A stretch of DNA of 31,601 bases from a virus, in the IMG/VR virus record IMGVR_UViG_3300028920_000638, positions 1 through 31,601 of that record. One strand, given 5' to 3'. The notes under the pieces are model-generated. The model had not been told where the DNA came from. It searched no databases and was given only the letters and a program-made list of their open reading frames with translations. Each line of letters begins with the position of its first letter. The stretch's first letter is position 1. Positions 1 to 28,993 of this stretch are shown piece by piece. The position numbers were made by a program, and so were the translations under genes.

Positions 1-149
1 GATCTTAGCGCATGGATGCAAGCCGGTGGTCGGATACTACCGCAAGGGGATCGGGGGTTGGGACCTGGCCCACGGGCTCGACGAGCACAACCCGTACCTG
101 CTGCAGCAAGCGCGCGGATGGATCGACCTATCTGATATCGGGGTAGCGT
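1..149. repeat. Terminal direct repeat, left copy
   Basis: These 149 bases recur at 31453-31601 in the same orientation. I find two differences, at position 16 (A here, C in the right copy) and position 140 (G here, T in the right copy). The repeat lies wholly inside one open reading frame that continues across the two ends, so it reads as overlap of a circular or circularly permuted assembly. A packaged terminal repeat is the alternative. The unique genome is then about 31,452 bp. Confidence 0.9.
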
Positions 150-151
150 GA
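2..151 (+). CDS. DUF551-like small protein, 3' part (gene begins at 31352)
   Basis: This is the C-terminal part of an 83-residue protein whose start is at 31352 near the right end. The frame is open across the junction and stops with TGA at 149-151, overlapping the next gene's ATG. Together the two parts show a P-E-G-Q-S-V-L strand, a G-Y-Y strand and a G-W-I segment. This recalls DUF551 proteins, which are small phage and prophage proteins of unknown role. The difference between end copies at 140 changes Trp (right) to Gly (left) three residues before the C-terminus; the one at 16 is synonymous. The family call is tentative and no biochemical function is claimed. Confidence 0.7.
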   Translation: MLAHGCKPVVGYYRKGIGGWDLAHGLDEHNPYLLQQARGWIDLSDIGVA

Positions 152-447
152 TGGCACGCTACAAGATCACCCGGCACCAGAACGGCAAAACGACCCTGCG
201 TCGCGCCCACCGGAAGGACCGAAACGCGCCGTGTCCATGCGGATCCGGCAGGAAATACAAACACTGCTGCCTGCGAGACGAGTACCAGGAGCGCGTCGAC
301 TACATCGACGCAAAAAAACAGGAGCAGGAACGGCTCAGGCAGGAACGGCTTGAGGAAATGATCATGAAAAACCTGGATCTGGATCCTGTCACGAGAGCCA
401 CGGCGGCCTATACAGAGTCGCTCGCGGCCTACACGAACAGGGAATAG
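151..447 (+). CDS. SEC-C motif (SecA-type zinc-binding) small protein
   Basis: A 98-residue protein with a SEC-C zinc motif at residues 28-40, CPCGSGRKYKHCC, the same C-x-C-x8-H/C-C pattern found at the C-terminus of SecA. A basic N-terminus (residues 1-25) precedes it and a charged Glu/Arg/Gln-rich helix (about 43-75) follows. SEC-C motifs bind zinc and mediate protein contacts with partners such as SecB or ribosomes. Stand-alone SEC-C proteins occur in bacteria and phages, mostly without known function. ATG at 151 overlaps the upstream TGA; an in-frame GTG at 148 would add one residue. The motif is clear, the role in the phage is not known. Confidence 0.85.
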   Translation: MARYKITRHQNGKTTLRRAHRKDRNAPCPCGSGRKYKHCCLRDEYQERVDYIDAKKQEQERLRQERLEEMIMKNLDLDPVTRATAAYTESLAAYTNRE

Positions 448-14438: not shown

Positions 14439-16670
14439 ATGGCGCACGATATCGGACCGTTCCAGACACTCGTATCGTTCGCAAGACGCGGCGGAATCTG
14501 GCGATCAGAAGTGACCCCTGGTGGCTTCAACCAAGACATATCGCGGCTGAATAAAGCGTATCGGGGACCGTACACCGACTTTCAGGTCAACGGGTATTCT
14601 GACCTGTCTTCGTTGCCGTGGACTAGCATCGACTCATATGCCAGGGCCTTCCAGTCATTCGAGAAGGAAAACATCGGCACACCAGAGGACCCAGAATATG
14701 TGTTCCACGAGATCAACAGCGTAACCGTGCGCGGCAGTAATCAGTTCGGCCAGTTCGGCCTGGGGACTGTTGGAGACGTGTCTACCTGGACGGACATCTT
14801 CGGATACCTCGAAACCTTCCCAGGATCCGGTGTGTACGAGGAAGTACCGTTGAACGTAAAGACCTACGCGCTTGGCGTAAGGCACATGATCGTTGTGGAT
14901 ATCAACGGCACGGCATGGGTGGCCGGAGACAACACATACGGCCAGCTTGGTCTGGGGAATACCTTCGCCAGCCTGTACCTTGTGCCGATAGTCGGGAACG
15001 ACTGGGAGAAGGTAGGAGCAGGATGGTACCACACATCTGCGATCAAGGATGATGGAACGATCTACGTGTGGGGCAACGGGGTACTCACACCGCAGCAGCG
15101 AGGTGTCGGAAATGTCTTCGTGGCAGTGTCGGCAGGATACGATCACATCCTCGCGATTGACGGATCCGGGCACCTGTGGCGTATGACTACCAGTGACACC
15201 GACTTCGTGTTGCTGGAAAACACCAGGACTTACATGCAGATCAGTGCGGGGTTCCAGCGTTCGTCCGCAATCACAACCGATGGCGATCTGTGGATCGGAA
15301 ACCAGACGGCGCTGTTCTACAAGGTGGCCGGAAAATGGCAGTACGTTTCGACCAGCATGTACAACAGGGCGGACATCAGGGGCGATCACCTTGCCAATCC
15401 GCGATACACCCGAGCTGCGATATCGATTTACGGCGTGACGTATGGAGTCAGCGACTTCGCGGGGGTCCTGCTCTTCGATTCGGTTGAAAGCGAATACCTG
15501 GACCTCATGGCAGACACTACCTTGTTCGCGAAAAGCGACGGTCGCGTGCTTGGCACAGGGCGCAACGATCACGGCCAGCTGCTGCTTGGTGATATGGTTG
15601 ACAGACCATACCCGGTGGTGACCAACAAGGGTAGGGTGTACGAGGTGCTTGGAACAGAGCCTGATCTGCGGTTCCCGATGTTCGCCTCCGACGGTGACAG
15701 CATGCTGTGGACCGACAACCGCCGCGCCCTGTATGGCATCGGTAAAAACGACTACGGCCAGATGAGCCAAGGGATATCCACCGAGGACGACTACAGCGTG
15801 CCGGTGGTTGCCTATTACTTCGAGGACGTTCACCCGTTAGACACCCTGGCAGGTGTATCCATGGGTCTGGGCTTCGGCGTTGTGTGGACAGAGAACGGGG
15901 CCACGTTTGCCTGGGGGAAGAACGACACGTACCAGTGCGGACGAGGCAATACGGACGACACGTTTTCGATCACCCAGGTGTTGGACAGCTCTGATACTCC
16001 GGTGTCGTTTCAGCAGGTAGCGGCTGGCGGGTCCCATTGTGTCGCGCTGGACTTCTCCGGCAACATCTGGACCTGGGGCGACGGATCCAACGGAGCATGC
16101 GGGAACGGCACGACGAACCCGAACGTCTACCCGGAGCCGATTGTATTTGACCCGCCGAGGACATTCGTGCAGGTTGGTGCTGGGCTGGACTTCTCCGTAG
16201 CCATAGACGATACCGGCCAGGTGTTCACCTGGGGGGCAAACGCGCACGGGCAGCTGGGCAATGGCGGGTACGGGCAGGCCCTGATACCATCGTTCGCCAT
16301 CATCGCCAATGCTCAAACGATAGCAACGCACAGCCGGGCGCAGCATGTAGCCTGTATCACGGTGGATGCTTTCCTCTATACCTGGGGACTCAACACGTCC
16401 GGCCAGCTGGGGACTGGAACGACCATCGACAGCCCGACCCCTGCATACATAACCGGGGCAAAGCGTCCTGGCCAGTGTTTCGTGGGCGCAGCTCACACGG
16501 GCGTGATATCGCCGACAAACGACGGGAAGCGCAAGGGCAAGATCCGATTATGGGGTTCTAATTTCTACGGGCAAACAGGAGTGTTCACGAGTATAATCCC
16601 AGACATAGTGCCGGGATTAGAGTATGATCGCGTGCGCTTTTCGTTCGATGAGGTGTGGGGGGTAGAGTGA
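14439..16670 (+). CDS. RCC1-repeat beta-propeller tail protein
   Basis: A 743-residue protein. After about 95 residues of non-repeat sequence, nine recognisable RCC1 blade motifs of the G-x-N-x-x-G-Q-x-G type occur. They fall at about residues 98, 162, 373, 434, 493, 547, 598, 649 and 706, each followed by A-x-G-x-x-H/F and a W-T-W-G or similar strand. Between 200 and 300 there are degenerate blades (V-W-G-N, L-W-R-M, L-W-I). RCC1 folds are seven-bladed propellers used for protein or polysaccharide contacts; in eukaryotic RCC1 they drive Ran nucleotide exchange, which is not implied here. Its place between tape measure and hub suggests a virion tail-tip component, perhaps receptor-binding. 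The ribosome binding site is weak. Confidence 0.85.
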   Translation: MAHDIGPFQTLVSFARRGGIWRSEVTPGGFNQDISRLNKAYRGPYTDFQVNGYSDLSSLPWTSIDSYARAFQSFEKENIGTPEDPEYVFHEINSVTVRGSNQFGQFGLGTVGDVSTWTDIFGYLETFPGSGVYEEVPLNVKTYALGVRHMIVVDINGTAWVAGDNTYGQLGLGNTFASLYLVPIVGNDWEKVGAGWYHTSAIKDDGTIYVWGNGVLTPQQRGVGNVFVAVSAGYDHILAIDGSGHLWRMTTSDTDFVLLENTRTYMQISAGFQRSSAITTDGDLWIGNQTALFYKVAGKWQYVSTSMYNRADIRGDHLANPRYTRAAISIYGVTYGVSDFAGVLLFDSVESEYLDLMADTTLFAKSDGRVLGTGRNDHGQLLLGDMVDRPYPVVTNKGRVYEVLGTEPDLRFPMFASDGDSMLWTDNRRALYGIGKNDYGQMSQGISTEDDYSVPVVAYYFEDVHPLDTLAGVSMGLGFGVVWTENGATFAWGKNDTYQCGRGNTDDTFSITQVLDSSDTPVSFQQVAAGGSHCVALDFSGNIWTWGDGSNGACGNGTTNPNVYPEPIVFDPPRTFVQVGAGLDFSVAIDDTGQVFTWGANAHGQLGNGGYGQALIPSFAIIANAQTIATHSRAQHVACITVDAFLYTWGLNTSGQLGTGTTIDSPTPAYITGAKRPGQCFVGAAHTGVISPTNDGKRKGKIRLWGSNFYGQTGVFTSIIPDIVPGLEYDRVRFSFDEVWGVE

Positions 16671-22147: not shown

Positions 22148-22505
22148 CCCGAGCACATCTGTGATACTCGTTGAGTTGGAACGCGAGAAAGAGGTCACCA
22201 TCACGCTTGGTGAGAAGACGATATGCGCCGACGACTGCGATACGATCCCGGCGAACAGCATCACCCGGGCTGTGCTGCGGATCGGTGACATCATCCTCGA
22301 TACGGACGTGCCTGGCGACGGCTTGAGCTTCAACAGCAACAAGACCGCTCTGGTGTGCATGCTTGGCCTGGTAGAAGGATTCGACCCGTACACCACATAT
22401 CCTGCACACATCACCGTGTACGATGATCTGGCTTATACTGGTGGGATCCCGTGGACCAGACTCATCATCAAGACGGTGCCGTGGCCTGGGCCGGAGGCAG
22501 AATGA
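22122..22505 (+). CDS. Hypothetical beta-rich protein, probable tail or virion accessory
   Basis: About 127 residues. ATG 22122 is given; in-frame GTG 22134, with GGAG seven bases upstream, is an equally good start that overlaps the previous gene by only 14 bases. The protein alternates beta strands (V-I-L-V-E-L, E-V-T-I-T-L-G, A-V-L-R-I-G) and has a conserved-looking W-T-R-L-I-I-K-T-V-P-W-P-G end. No family is recognised. It is followed by the amidase with ATGA overlap. Confidence 0.6.
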   Translation: MELSVSTCSPSTSVILVELEREKEVTITLGEKTICADDCDTIPANSITRAVLRIGDIILDTDVPGDGLSFNSNKTALVCMLGLVEGFDPYTTYPAHITVYDDLAYTGGIPWTRLIIKTVPWPGPEAE

Positions 22506-22999
22506 TCAAGATCTCTAGGGATGATTGGGGAGCTTCTGAGCCTCGGCATGCCTATAGCAAGCACATCCCGAGGTTCGTCGGGATCCACCACAGCGCCAGC
22601 GACCAGGACGCATACAATGGGGCACCGTCAATCCGCACGTTCCAGCGGTACCACCAGCACCACCGTGGGTGGAATGATATCGGATACCACTACATCATCG
22701 GCCCTGATGGCAAGGTGTACGAGGGGCGACCAGAGGATGCAATGGGAGCGCACGTCAAGGGTAAGAACGATGGCAGCATCGGGATCTGCCTGATCGGCGA
22801 CTACCGGCCGGGCCGTGACCAGCTCACCCGCTTCGGGTGGTCGGCCCTGGTAGGCGTGTGCTGTGAGGTCATGAAGCGGTGGAACATCCCGCCGGATCAA
22901 CTGTACGGGCACCGTGACCTCGGATATACTCAATGCCCTGGGGATCAGCTCTACTACCCCATCGCTGTGATCCGATTCATCTATGGCGTGGAGTTATGA
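22502..22999 (+). CDS. N-acetylmuramoyl-L-alanine amidase endolysin (T7 lysozyme / PGRP fold)
   Basis: A 165-residue single-domain amidase that cuts between muramic acid and L-alanine in peptidoglycan. Zinc ligands are visible as His in the I-H-H-S-A-S motif (residue 29 or 30), His137 in G-H-R-D-L, and Cys145 in T-Q-C-P-G. The family Y-H-Y-I-I-G strand (about 62-68) and G-S-I-G-I-C-L-I-G-D strand (about 91-100) are present. The Lys two residues before the zinc Cys in T7 lysozyme is Thr here, a common variant. ATG 22502 overlaps the previous gene by ATGA. No signal peptide or cell-wall binding domain is seen, so it relies on a holin. Confidence 0.92.
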   Translation: MIKISRDDWGASEPRHAYSKHIPRFVGIHHSASDQDAYNGAPSIRTFQRYHQHHRGWNDIGYHYIIGPDGKVYEGRPEDAMGAHVKGKNDGSIGICLIGDYRPGRDQLTRFGWSALVGVCCEVMKRWNIPPDQLYGHRDLGYTQCPGDQLYYPIAVIRFIYGVEL

Positions 23000-23012: not shown

Positions 23013-23189
23013 ATGAATCACCCCAAGACTATCAAGGGTATGCTGTTCGTAGCGGCCACCGGCCTGTTGTTCGGCGGTGCCAAGGCGATGGAATCTGGCG
23101 ACGTCACGACCGGATCCGTGATGTTCGTGTTCGGCCTGGCAGCTGTCGCCATGCGCGAGATCGTCAAGGAGAAGGACGGCGATCAGTGA
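23013..23189 (+). CDS. Candidate holin, 58 residues
   Basis: ATG 23013 follows GAGAAAGGGACTATC, a good ribosome binding site; the in-frame ATG 22983 overlapping the amidase lacks one. Two hydrophobic segments at about residues 10-25 and 42-56 are separated by a short polar loop, and the C-terminus is charged (K-E-K-D-G-D). This is class II holin topology, and it lies directly downstream of the amidase. The product would form holes in the cytoplasmic membrane for endolysin release. Assignment rests on topology and position. Confidence 0.7.
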   Translation: MNHPKTIKGMLFVAATGLLFGGAKAMESGDVTTGSVMFVFGLAAVAMREIVKEKDGDQ

Positions 23190-23491
23190 AACACTCGCTT
23201 GACCAGCTCATCGCACGAGGGTGGCCCGAGACCATCGTCCCTTTCCGCACTGCGAAAAACCCGGAAGGCGATGCCGTGGCGATGCAATGCACCGCATGTG
23301 GCAGAGAGCAGGAGGCCGTGAAGGGGATCCTAATCGCAACACGTGGAGGGGTACTGTGCTTCGACCATCTGCTCGATCTGTGCCGCCGTGATCCGCGTGT
23401 GGCGCTTGACATCGCCAAGGCGCTATCTCGACTCGTGACCGACATCTACAAAGTGGCAAGGCCAAGATCCAGACGCTTCCACTTCTGGTAG
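23186..23491 (+). CDS. Small protein with ClpX-like zinc-binding domain
   Basis: A 101-residue protein, GTG 23186 in a GTGA overlap with the holin gene. Residues 35-66 resemble the N-terminal C4 zinc domain of ClpX. C35-x2-C38 is followed by G-R-E-Q-E-A-V-K (ClpX has G-K-S-Q-x-E-V-K), a hydrophobic I-L-I-A segment, then C58-x2-H61 and L-L-D-L-C. The fourth ligand is His rather than Cys. There is no AAA+ domain. The C-terminus is a helix followed by a basic tail (R-P-R-S-R-R). In ClpX this domain dimerises and binds adaptors such as SspB and substrates. A free copy could interfere with that, but this is inference. A generic zinc finger is the alternative. Confidence 0.7.
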   Translation: MKHSLDQLIARGWPETIVPFRTAKNPEGDAVAMQCTACGREQEAVKGILIATRGGVLCFDHLLDLCRRDPRVALDIAKALSRLVTDIYKVARPRSRRFHFW

Positions 23492-23520
23492 CTTCACCGC
23501 ACCCCCACTATCAGCTTTCC

Positions 23521-23550
23521 GGCCCCCGGCACCTCCCCGGGGGTCGTTTC
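23521..23550 (+). terminator. Intrinsic terminator closing the late operon
   Basis: GGCCCCCGG (23521-23529), a seven-base loop and CCGGGGGTC (23537-23545) form a stem of nine pairs including one G-T, followed by GTTTCT. It lies 30 bases after the last late gene and before the early promoter. This is the strongest terminator candidate in the window. Confidence 0.75.
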
Positions 23551-25400: not shown

Positions 25401-27296
25401 ATGATAATCAAAACTGTGACATATCGCAATTTCAAGGGGTTGAAGGAGTTCACCGTCGACCTCAATGGAAAATCGGTCACCATCAGCGGGGCCAACGAGG
25501 CAGGCAAGACAACTCTGGCCGATGGCATCTGGTGGTTGTTCTTCGGCAAGGATCTGAACAACCGCACGGATTTTTCCGTCAAGCCACTGGATGCTACCGG
25601 GGCTGCATCGCAAGGCGCCGAGGTATCTGTGGAGGCCGTGACGGACGCCGGGACGTTCAAGCGCACGTATCGCGAGGTGTGGGCCCGCAAGCGTGGCGCC
25701 GAGGCCGAGACGTTCAGCGGGCACACCACCGACTACGAGATCAACGGCGTGCCTGCCAGTGATCGCGAGTACAAGACCGCGGTGGCCGAGATCGTTGGTG
25801 AAGAGCAGTTCAAACTGCTCACCAACCCGGTGTATTTCGCGTCCATGCTCAAATGGCAGAAGCGACGTGAGATCATCCTGGCCATCTGCGGCGACGTGTC
25901 CGACGAGGATGTGATCTCGCAGAATGCCGAGCTGGCAGAACTGCGCGGGATCCTGGGCGACGTGCCTGCCGACAAGTACCGCAAAATGCTGGACGCCCGC
26001 CGCAAGGCGATCAACGATGAGCAGAGCAAGATCCCGGCCCGGATCGACCAGGAGAACAAGGGACTGTACACGGACGACCTGACCGTCGAGGAGCTGCGCC
26101 AGCAGGCCGCAGACATCCAGGCAGAGGTAAGCGCCATCACCAAGACCATCGCCAGCATCGAGTCCGGCGAAGAGATCCAGCGGGTGGAAACCGAGATCGC
26201 CCGGCTGGAGGTGGCTGGCGAGTCGAAGGCAGCTAAGGAGCTGGCGAAGAAGCGGGACGAGCTGTCGAAGCTCCAGCGCGATGCCACGGCCCACTCAATC
26301 CGGCTTGCGAACTTGCGCCAGCAAATCGTCACCAAGACGGCGGAGATCGAGCGGCACGACGACAAGGTGGCCGCGCTCGACTGTGAGATGAAGGAACTGC
26401 AGCGCAAGTACATGGAGGCGTACAAGGCCGATTACGGTAGCCTATGCCCTACGTGCGGTCAGGACATGCCAGCCGGCCGCGTGGCCGAGTCACGCGCTCG
26501 AGCGCTTGCCACGATCACCGAGGATGGCAAGGCCAAGGAGGCGGAGCTGAAAGCGGCCATCGAGTCGCGACCATCCCTCGATCAGGAACTGCAGGAAGCC
26601 CAGGAGATCTATGCCGCTGCCGAGAAGAGCGGGCAGGCGTTCGCCGATGGCGTGAAGACCCTGGAAACCATGATCCGCAATGCCGAGAGCGACGAGCCAC
26701 AGGGAGAGTGCATGGAGCTGACGGAGCTTCGCGGAAAGCTGTCCGAGCTGCAGGCTGATACTGCGGCTGCTGCGGAGCTGGCGAAGGCCAAGCAGGTGGA
26801 ACTGGAGAACGACCTGTCCGAGATCCGCAGACGCATCGCTGGGCTGGAGTCCAACGCATTCGCACACAAGCGGATCGACGGGCTCAAGGCTAGGCAGAAG
26901 GAGCTGGCGAAGGAATGGGCGCAGACCGAGCGAGAGCTGCACCTGCTGGACGAGCACACCCGTGCCCGGGTCCGCGTCCTGGAGTCTGCCGTCAACGCAC
27001 GGTTCAAGATGGCGCGGTTCCAGATGTTCAGGGACCAGATCAACGGTGGCGTGCAGGAGTGCTGCGAGGTTACCTACAACGGCGTGCCGTACAACGGCGG
27101 GCTTAACACCGGGGCCCGCATCCTGGTCGGACTGGATATCATCGAGACACTGCAGAAGCACTACGGCCTTTCGATGCCGGTGTTCGTTGACAACGCCGAA
27201 GCGATCACGTCACCCATCGAGTGCGACGTGCAGCAGGTGGTGAAGCTCGTGGCCGTACAGCGGCCGAAGAATCTCAAGGTGGAGGTGGCAGCATGA
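25401..27296 (+). CDS. SbcC/Rad50-like ATPase of phage recombination
   Basis: A 631-residue SMC-type ATPase. Walker A is at about residues 29-38 (S-G-A-N-E-A-G-K-T-T). Long coiled coils (about 185-345 and 360-540) flank a zinc hook C-P-T-C-G near 348-352. The C-terminal half has the G-G-L-N-T-G-A-R signature-like segment (about 565-573) and a Walker B P-V-F-V-D-N-A-E-A (about 593-601). Length is about half that of bacterial SbcC, as in phage versions. It has no Mre11-like SbcD partner here. ATG 25401 follows GAAAGGAACC. It overlaps recT by ATGA, suggesting joint action at DNA ends. Confidence 0.9.
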   Translation: MIIKTVTYRNFKGLKEFTVDLNGKSVTISGANEAGKTTLADGIWWLFFGKDLNNRTDFSVKPLDATGAASQGAEVSVEAVTDAGTFKRTYREVWARKRGAEAETFSGHTTDYEINGVPASDREYKTAVAEIVGEEQFKLLTNPVYFASMLKWQKRREIILAICGDVSDEDVISQNAELAELRGILGDVPADKYRKMLDARRKAINDEQSKIPARIDQENKGLYTDDLTVEELRQQAADIQAEVSAITKTIASIESGEEIQRVETEIARLEVAGESKAAKELAKKRDELSKLQRDATAHSIRLANLRQQIVTKTAEIERHDDKVAALDCEMKELQRKYMEAYKADYGSLCPTCGQDMPAGRVAESRARALATITEDGKAKEAELKAAIESRPSLDQELQEAQEIYAAAEKSGQAFADGVKTLETMIRNAESDEPQGECMELTELRGKLSELQADTAAAAELAKAKQVELENDLSEIRRRIAGLESNAFAHKRIDGLKARQKELAKEWAQTERELHLLDEHTRARVRVLESAVNARFKMARFQMFRDQINGGVQECCEVTYNGVPYNGGLNTGARILVGLDIIETLQKHYGLSMPVFVDNAEAITSPIECDVQQVVKLVAVQRPKNLKVEVAA

Positions 27297-28228
27297 ACCA
27301 GCGCAATGATCTCGTCAGACAGGATGGCACCGCGAAGTTCGGCCTGGATCCGAACGGTAGGCCCAGGACATTCATGGCGGCGCTGTCCGCCAAGCTGGCA
27401 ACCGCCAGCGTTCAGTCATCGTTCGCCCAGGCGGCCGGGCCGCTTGCCCGCGCCATCATGGGGTCCATCATCGAGGTGTGCAGCAACAACCAGAAGCTGC
27501 AGGAGTGCGACCCGAATCTCGTGATCCAGGAGGCGGTGAAGGCGGCCACGTGCGGCCTGTCACTCGCCAGTGGACTCGGGCACGCTTACATCATCCCGTA
27601 CAACAAATCTGTGAAGGTTGGCACCAGGTGGGAAAAAGTGCCGATCCCCCAGATGCAACTCGGGTATCGTGGACTTATCCAGCTGGCCCTGCGTACCCGG
27701 CAATATCGCACGATCAACGCGGACATGCTGTACGTCGGTGAATCGGTTGTGATCGACCGACTTACCGGCCGTGTGTCCATATCCGGGGCACCGACATCCG
27801 ACGAGGCTATCGGGTATTTCATATATTTCGAGACGCTGGATGGATTCGAGAAATCCGGGTTCATGTCTCGGGATGACATGCTGGCACACGCCCAGCGGTA
27901 CTCGAAAAGCTGGGATGCGAAAAACAAGCGGTTCAACCCATCATCCGCATGGGCAACGAATTTCGACAAGATGGGCATCAAGACCATGGTGCGCCTGGTT
28001 CTGCAGAAATATGGCCCGGTATCTGTGGAGTTCATGGAGGCAATCAACCGCGACAGCGATGCGGACGGCTACCGCTACGATGCCGCGCCGACGCCTCCGG
28101 CGCTTGATTACGACGGGCCGCAGGTGCATGATGGAGAGGATGGCCACGAGGCACCGGACGAGGCGATGACCATTCCGGATCCGGTGCAGGAAGAGACGGA
28201 GGTTGTGCCTCCGTTCGGGATGGGGTGA
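27293..28228 (+). CDS. recT: RecT-family single-strand annealing protein
   Basis: A 311-residue protein. RecT-family features: the N-terminal helix region, D-P-N-L-V-I-Q-E-A-V-K-A-A-T-C-G-L-S-L (about 69-87), G-L-G-H-A-Y-I-I-P-Y (about 91-100), Q-M-Q-L-G-Y-R-G-L-I-Q-L-A (about 117-129) and the M-G-I-K-T-M-V-R-L-V motif (about 216-225). The acidic Asp/Glu/Pro-rich tail (about 245-311) may recruit a single-strand binding protein. It promotes annealing of single strands for phage recombination. ATG 27293 overlaps the ATPase by ATGA, after AAGGTGGAGG. It lies directly before a metallo-beta-lactamase-fold gene rather than a recE or YqaJ exonuclease. Confidence 0.93.
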   Translation: MNQRNDLVRQDGTAKFGLDPNGRPRTFMAALSAKLATASVQSSFAQAAGPLARAIMGSIIEVCSNNQKLQECDPNLVIQEAVKAATCGLSLASGLGHAYIIPYNKSVKVGTRWEKVPIPQMQLGYRGLIQLALRTRQYRTINADMLYVGESVVIDRLTGRVSISGAPTSDEAIGYFIYFETLDGFEKSGFMSRDDMLAHAQRYSKSWDAKNKRFNPSSAWATNFDKMGIKTMVRLVLQKYGPVSVEFMEAINRDSDADGYRYDAAPTPPALDYDGPQVHDGEDGHEAPDEAMTIPDPVQEETEVVPPFGMG

Positions 28229-28231
28229 CGA

Positions 28232-28993
28232 GTGAATATCACGACACTCGGAAGCGGTAGCAGTGGCAACGCTCATATCGTGGAGTGCGGGGGGGCTAGC
28301 GTCATGCTTGACGCTGGCCTGCCTTTCCGCAAACTCATGGAGCTGTCGAAGTTCAAGGCGACCGATGTGCAGGCTGCGCTCATTACCCACGAGCACCAGG
28401 ACCACGCAAAGGCAGTCGAGGATCTTATGCTACACGGTGTCGACTGCTGGATGAGCCTGGGCACGGCCATGGCTCTCGGGATCCCATCGGACACGCCGCG
28501 CCTGCAGTTCTGCCACCCCGGCGAGCTGCACAGCCTGGGTGATCGGTGGGAGATGGGATGCTTCCACACAACGCATGACAGCGAGGAGCCGTTGGGCTTC
28601 ATCGTGCAGCGCCAGGGATACCCATACCGGCTCATGTACCTAACCGACTCGGCGACCGGCCCGAGCTGGCCAACCGGCATCACCCACCTGATGATCGAGG
28701 TAAACCACACCCGAGATCTGATCGCCTCGTCCACGGCAGTGCATGCAGGACGCGCCAAACGGTCGCACATGGGGCTGGAGTATGCCCTGCGGTATATCGA
28801 TGACCTGCGCTTCAATTCGCCCAACCTGTTCGAGGTGCATTTCATCCACCTCAGCGACTGCCATGCGGACCAGGAGGAGATCGAGACGGCTGCGGCTATG
28901 GCACTCCCAGGTGTGCGGATCAAGATCGGTGACCGGGCACGCACGGAGCCAGTCAGTTACCCGCAGGCGTTCGGGCTGGTGGATGAGCTGTGA
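28232..28993 (+). CDS. Metallo-beta-lactamase-fold hydrolase (YycJ-like), recombination-associated
   Basis: A 253-residue protein, GTG 28232. The metallo-beta-lactamase motif is clear: T-H-E-H-Q-D-H-A at residues 52-59 with His53, His55, Asp57 and His58. Other ligands are probably in the later H-T-T-H-D-S (about 110-115), T-D-S-A-T (about 135-139) and H-L-S-D-C-H segments. Close phage relatives sit beside recT genes. Related bacterial YycJ proteins are nucleases of DNA mismatch repair, so this protein may supply the 5'-3' resection that RecT needs. That function is inferred from family and position. Confidence 0.85.
   Translation: MNITTLGSGSSGNAHIVECGGASVMLDAGLPFRKLMELSKFKATDVQAALITHEHQDHAKAVEDLMLHGVDCWMSLGTAMALGIPSDTPRLQFCHPGELHSLGDRWEMGCFHTTHDSEEPLGFIVQRQGYPYRLMYLTDSATGPSWPTGITHLMIEVNHTRDLIASSTAVHAGRAKRSHMGLEYALRYIDDLRFNSPNLFEVHFIHLSDCHADQEEIETAAAMALPGVRIKIGDRARTEPVSYPQAFGLVDEL

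Follow-up and report, generated by a model that had tools for sequence, protein, structure and literature searches.

A putative treble-clef zinc protein encoded beside the lysis genes of a metagenomic phage resembles the ClpX zinc domain in predicted fold but scores outside its family

The window, the whole stretch of DNA analyzed here, is a virus record of 31.6 kb (31,601 nt). Its lysis region encodes an amidase endolysin and a small holin-like protein, and the latter gene overlaps an open reading frame (ORF) of 101 codons. The features of this locus are the following.

22451..22999, + strand: endolysin, N-acetylmuramoyl-L-alanine amidase (Amidase_2; Pfam E 1.5e-21, PHROGs amidase E 4.4e-31)
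23013..23189, + strand: small holin-like gene with two hydrophobic stretches, directly upstream of the 101-codon ORF; no family match
23172..23176, + strand: Shine-Dalgarno-like AAGGA, 9 nt 5′ of the GTG, read from the sequence
23186..23189, + strand: 4-base GTGA overlap between the ORF start and the TGA stop of the holin-like gene, read from the sequence
23186..23491, + strand: ORF for the orphan putative treble-clef zinc protein, 101 aa, GTG start, TAG stop
23520..23546, + strand: intrinsic terminator-like hairpin of 10 pairs, 9 of them GC, with a T-rich tail, shortly downstream of the ORF

The ORF at 23186-23491 is very likely a real gene of this metagenomic phage, judging from its ribosome-binding site, the overlap, the codon score and the hairpin. 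With ten clear genes of the window as the training set for codon usage, this frame scored 0.053 per codon, the highest of the six frames (-0.20 or lower in the five others) but below most of the neighboring genes (0.072-0.317). The GTGA overlap suggests translational coupling with the holin-like gene, whose product we infer to be a holin from its position and hydrophobicity. An XhlA-like protein, matched below the cut-off, is also encoded upstream. As the XhlA-like, amidase and holin-like genes lie upstream and the hairpin downstream, the 101-codon ORF is probably the final gene of the structural and lysis (late) operon, which the hairpin at 23520-23546 probably closes after the ORF. Two terminator-like sites were found versus an average of 1.3 in shuffles, and the hairpin is thus supportive only. 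No RNA families were found in the window by an Rfam search.

Along part of its length, the terminase of the window is 62% identical to that of a Desulfobulbus MAG contig, and its identity to the best known phages among the matches listed is 43.6% or less. Several other genes of the phage were recognized. The region of tail genes contains a 743-aa RCC1-repeat protein (14439-16670, + strand; Pfam RCC1 E 1.4e-54, RCC1-like domain E 3.8e-73), a predicted beta-propeller that seems odd for a gene of the virion region. A small SEC-C zinc motif protein is encoded at the start of the window (148-447, + strand; E 1.9e-10). An SbcC-like protein and, after it, a RecT-like annealing protein are encoded at 25401-28228 on the + strand (PHROGs E 5e-66 and 6e-53), and relatives of the SbcC-like protein were present in only two viral contigs. 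A metallo-beta-lactamase-fold protein follows at 28232-28993 (+ strand; Lactamase_B_2 E 1.9e-8), which also gave a weak match, below the cut-off, to the anti-Pycsar protein Apyc1 (E 8.7e-4).

No close relatives of the 101-aa protein were found in phages, plasmids, viral contigs or genome contigs. Degenerate DNA patterns designed for its motif with the fourth-ligand histidine and for its N-terminal GWPExxVPF gave no relative either, the loci retrieved, where there were any, encoding unrelated zinc proteins. Fifty records of related phages, selected via terminase, endolysin or SbcC, were searched whole with a query that had no positive control, and no relative was retrieved. Among 297 genomes of the Desulfobulbus phylum, only four weak matches appeared at E 0.01, all interrupted by stop codons and about as many as expected by chance. 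The protein is most likely an orphan with no homologue in the collections searched.

Residues 35-66 of the protein read C35-T-A-C38-G-R-E-Q-E-A-V-K-G-ILIA-T-R-G-G-V-L-C58-F-D-H61-L-L-D-L-C66. Together with the C-terminal part, this segment defines the following features.

23288..23299, + strand: zinc knuckle C35-T-A-C38, putative ligands 1 and 2, from the sequence
23357..23368, + strand: C58-F-D-H61, putative ligands 3 and 4, with H where ClpX has C, from the sequence; a predicted helix starts here
23393..23458, + strand: long helix predicted for residues 70-91, following a kink at D69-P70; AlphaFold2 single-sequence model, pLDDT mostly about 83-89
23459..23488, + strand: basic C-terminal tail RPRSRRFHFW, residues 92-101, from the sequence; low confidence, pLDDT below 50 at residues 97-101

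The preliminary description of this DNA had read residues 35-66 as following the C4 domain of ClpX in both order and spacing. The order agrees, but the spacing does not, because each of two loops has one extra residue: 19 residues separate the ligand pairs versus 18 in ClpX, and four residues lead from the last ligand to the following LC cysteine versus three in ClpX. A spacing of 19 residues between the ligand pairs also occurs in genuine phage ClpX-type fingers, so the first of these differences is compatible with ClpX kinship. The same description had pointed to the lysis region, to the absence of an AAA+ motor, to a basic tail and to a histidine at the fourth ligand that is unusual for ClpX. 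Each of these can be read at the locus: the ORF adjoins the amidase endolysin and holin-like genes, the frame is just 101 aa long, RPRSRRFHFW forms the C-terminus, and H61 occupies a position at which none of the genuine ClpX-type viral fingers has a histidine. Scans of viral contigs for C3H patterns with 19- and 18-residue spacing (15 and 18 loci for the two patterns) yielded unrelated zinc proteins only and not a single ClpX-type domain. By contrast, the C4 pattern scan of viral contigs gave many ClpX-type domains. Two small phage families, one comprising L071, L076 and L079 and the other L072, L085, L074, L081 and L083, carry C-x2-C-G-x2-Q-x2-V followed by C-x2-H; neither has a detectable relation to the 101-aa protein.

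The profile search against zf-C4_ClpX suggested in the preliminary description placed the phage protein outside the family by score. Up to E 10, Pfam PF06689 matched neither the full-length protein nor two fragments of it nor the window translated in six frames, in a search with a cut-off of 27 bits in which the zinc-binding domain (ZBD) of E. coli ClpX scored 77.8 bits. Nor did Pfam, NCBIfam or PHROGs assign the 101-aa protein to any family. When all PDB chains were searched by phmmer, ClpX zinc domains came out on top with non-significant E-values of 0.045-0.067; ClpX was recovered neither by three shuffles preserving Cys, His and Gly nor by a natural phage protein sharing the pattern. The ClpX ZBD was also the best six-frame match in two of six bacterial genomes, those of Bdellovibrio (E 0.007) and Pseudomonas arsenicoxydans (E 0.03). 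Against a profile of 17 ClpX-type domains, the phage protein scored 9.7 bits, a value reached by two out of 5000 shuffles preserving Cys and His. We rejected such shuffles as the sole control for being too easy: the phage protein beats 4998 of the 5000, yet natural pattern-matched proteins reach 9.7 bits as well.

As the fairest control, natural proteins that share the pattern itself, we collected 90 distinct pattern-matching domains from the scans of viral contigs, consisting of 27 genuine ClpX-type domains and 63 others. A widened profile built from 44 ClpX-type domains divided them into two separate groups, with the genuine ClpX-type domains at 65-84.5 bits (n=27) and the others at 20.6 bits or less (n=63). 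The phage protein scored 9.7 bits with this profile and fell within the non-ClpX group, in which four of the 63 scored higher. By phmmer median it was third of 64 (two others higher), and by hhalign tenth (nine others higher). These ranks indicate a hint of ClpX-ward similarity that is no greater than that of certain clearly different zinc proteins. The 63 natural proteins further mean that C-x2-C-G-x2-Q-x2-V alone does not mark relatives of ClpX. Membership in the ClpX C4 family was therefore not supported, given the lack of a PF06689 match, a score of 9.7 versus 65-84.5 bits, a place inside the pattern-matched background and the lack of any ClpX-type finger with a histidine ligand. Membership among the stand-alone phage ClpX-type fingers was likewise not supported, since the score of the C4-finger family was not reached in the PF06689 and widened-profile tests. 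A very remote ClpX ancestry may nevertheless underlie the sequence, as the ClpX-ward signal tops all PDB sequences.

The full-length protein was modeled by AlphaFold2 from the single sequence with pLDDT 72 and pTM 0.56, and a fold search with this model gave no convincing match and no ClpX chains. The model of residues 22-96 (pLDDT 78, pTM 0.53) consists of a knuckle, a hairpin, a helix from residue 59 and the long helix of residues 70-91. The tail RPRSRRFHFW is probably flexible, to judge from the model. In a Foldseek search with residues 22-96, ClpX ZBDs held ranks 1-5, though only weakly (E 0.1-0.5, probability 0.77-0.92), followed by the RNF4 RING and LIM domains. VIA, in which differences of up to 1 Z are treated as ties, aligned the ClpX ZBD at Z 4.5 (rmsd 2.5 over 40 residues; 40-44 aligned) and the RNF4 RING at 3.6. 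Because ClpX ZBDs rank top in both Foldseek and VIA, the protein is likely to adopt a treble-clef fold arranged much as in ClpX. The model of residues 22-96 was built from a sequence that bears the motif, and the likeness in fold may partly echo that motif instead of being independent proof. Of the stand-alone ClpX-like zinc domain described earlier, there remains a small motor-less protein that is probably a zinc finger and for which ClpX comes first by PDB sequence and by predicted fold; its membership in the C4 family is not supported.

We consider it probable that the product of this gene is a zinc-stabilized treble-clef protein which acts by protein contact, with a partner from the host or the phage. 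A single zinc site of the treble-clef type, formed by C35, C38, C58 and H61, would lie in a small soluble protein and hold the knuckle, the beta-hairpin and the helix start together, with the long C-terminal helix and the basic tail beyond. Its translation, coupled to that of the holin-like gene, would take place late, from the final gene of the structural/lysis operon. The protein would most likely contact a host or phage partner via the hairpin and the long helix, possibly as a dimer. The likeness to the ClpX N-domain would then be one of fold only, as in the anti-sigma factor CsfB, and not one of family membership. The fold models behind this reading are single-sequence models of moderate confidence, which counts against it, as does the lack of a homologue in the collections searched whose ligand residues could be compared.

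Three other explanations were weighed against such a contact protein. A regulator directed at nucleic acids or RNA polymerase, which would bind DNA, RNA or a sigma factor through its zinc domain and basic tail and shut off or tune late transcription, is unlikely, albeit the least so of the three. It would account for the arginine-rich tail RPRSRRFHFW, the treble-clef fold is common in such roles, and CsfB is a precedent for a ClpX-NTD-like fold serving as an anti-sigma factor (PMC5890618); however, the protein matched no regulator family in Pfam, NCBIfam or PHROGs, and CsfB was absent from the phmmer PDB matches. The least probable explanation is a non-zinc protein or a non-functional gene, that is, an orphan frame with a weak coding signal that ends the operon and whose Cys/His pattern is coincidental. 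The codon score, top of the six frames yet low at 0.053 versus 0.072-0.317 in most neighbors, fits this explanation, as does the lack of a homologue in the collections searched. It is at odds with the ribosome-binding site, the GTGA coupling and 101 open codons, and with a C-x2-C / C-x2-H pair around which a structure is predicted.

Between these two in probability, and quite unlikely, is a divergent stand-alone mimic of the ClpX N-domain, which would dock onto SspB- or RssB-like adaptors or substrates of ClpX, or onto ClpX N-domains, and late in infection shield phage proteins from ClpXP or redirect it. Binding to ClpX or its adaptors is a possibility drawn from resemblance: ClpX ZBD entries come first both by PDB sequence (E 0.045-0.067) and by fold (Foldseek probability 0.92 and 0.89; VIA Z 4.5 over 40-44 residues), the three Cys/His/Gly-preserving shuffles had no ClpX match, and the best six-frame matches in Bdellovibrio and Pseudomonas arsenicoxydans were ClpX ZBDs (E 0.007 and 0.03). 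Free ClpX ZBD blocks RssB-mediated degradation in vitro (PMC7226468), and SPO1 Gp53, acting on ClpC, is a precedent for an adaptor-like Clp protease modulator of a phage (PMC6873191). Against the mimic stand the missing PF06689 match and the 9.7 bits versus 65-84.5 bits, along with the pattern-matched zinc proteins that rank higher (of the 63, four in the profile score, two in the phmmer median and nine in hhalign). Moreover, no ClpX-type finger with a histidine as the fourth ligand was found, the 297 genomes scanned yielded at E 0.01 only the four weak, stop-interrupted matches, close to the chance number, and the resemblance in the fold search may partly repeat the sequence motif. In its fuller version, a very divergent C3H form of the ClpX N-domain, produced together with the lysis proteins, would act as a free decoy that engages the adaptors or substrates of ClpX and so protects late phage proteins or restrains ClpXP at the end of infection; this strikes us as rather improbable. 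A true mimic of the ClpX N-domain would mean phage control of host proteolysis from the lysis operon, and the evidence falls short of this.

Of the known systems compared, the N-terminal zinc domain of ClpX (zf-C4_ClpX, PF06689; PDB 2DS5-2DS8, 1OVX) ranks first for the 101-aa protein in the comparisons of sequence and predicted fold. The two have in common the order of C-x2-C-G-x2-Q-x2-V, a hairpin, C-x2-[C/H] and LDLC. Unlike the ClpX domain, the phage protein has a histidine as the fourth ligand, an extra residue in two loops, a long extra helix and a basic tail. SPO1 Gp53, a phage adaptor-like modulator of ClpCP (PMC6873191), is similar as a precedent of a phage protein redirecting a host Clp protease, but it is a 25 kDa protein that targets ClpC, and no relation to the 101-aa protein is shown. 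CsfB (Gin), an anti-sigma factor of Bacillus subtilis, stands alone and has the ClpX N-domain as its nearest structural relative, although its authors doubt a common function or ancestry (PMC5890618). The 101-aa protein is like CsfB in being a small stand-alone protein with a treble clef, here a predicted one; CsfB differs in that its function and dimer are known and that it is not encoded in a phage lysis region. CsfB (5N7Y) was absent from the phmmer PDB matches up to E 10, and the phage protein had no match among the family profiles of Pfam.

Stand-alone ClpX-type fingers in phages are already known and not new: C4-type fingers have been annotated in P88 (gp19), PP9W2 (gp081), BUCT566 (gp74) and Alize, and in plasmids such as pEC361_3. 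Like the 101-aa protein, the fingers of phages and phage-plasmids are small, phage-borne and motor-less, with a single ClpX-like finger. They differ from it in having four cysteines and a finger that is 39-68% identical to the ZBD of E. coli ClpX, and in the phages examined they adjoin replication, recombination or integration genes and not lysis genes. In the viral collection, at least 27 distinct domains are genuinely of the ClpX type, and the majority of them stand alone. L232, L235, L242, L257, L276, L290, L291, L301, L303, L306 and others carry genuine phage ClpX-type fingers in which the ligand pairs are one residue further apart; most of these, too, are stand-alone. In L225 (4757-5998), L248 (8622-9854), L302 (2836-4089) and L307 (5173-6384), a ClpX-type finger opens a frame of about 404-418 aa, and these frames apparently encode phage-borne full-length ClpX-like proteins. 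As free ClpX ZBD blocks RssB-mediated sigma-S degradation in vitro (PMC7226468), a decoy of this kind can work, and the 27 genuine viral ClpX-type domains are better candidates for a ClpX decoy than the 101-aa protein.
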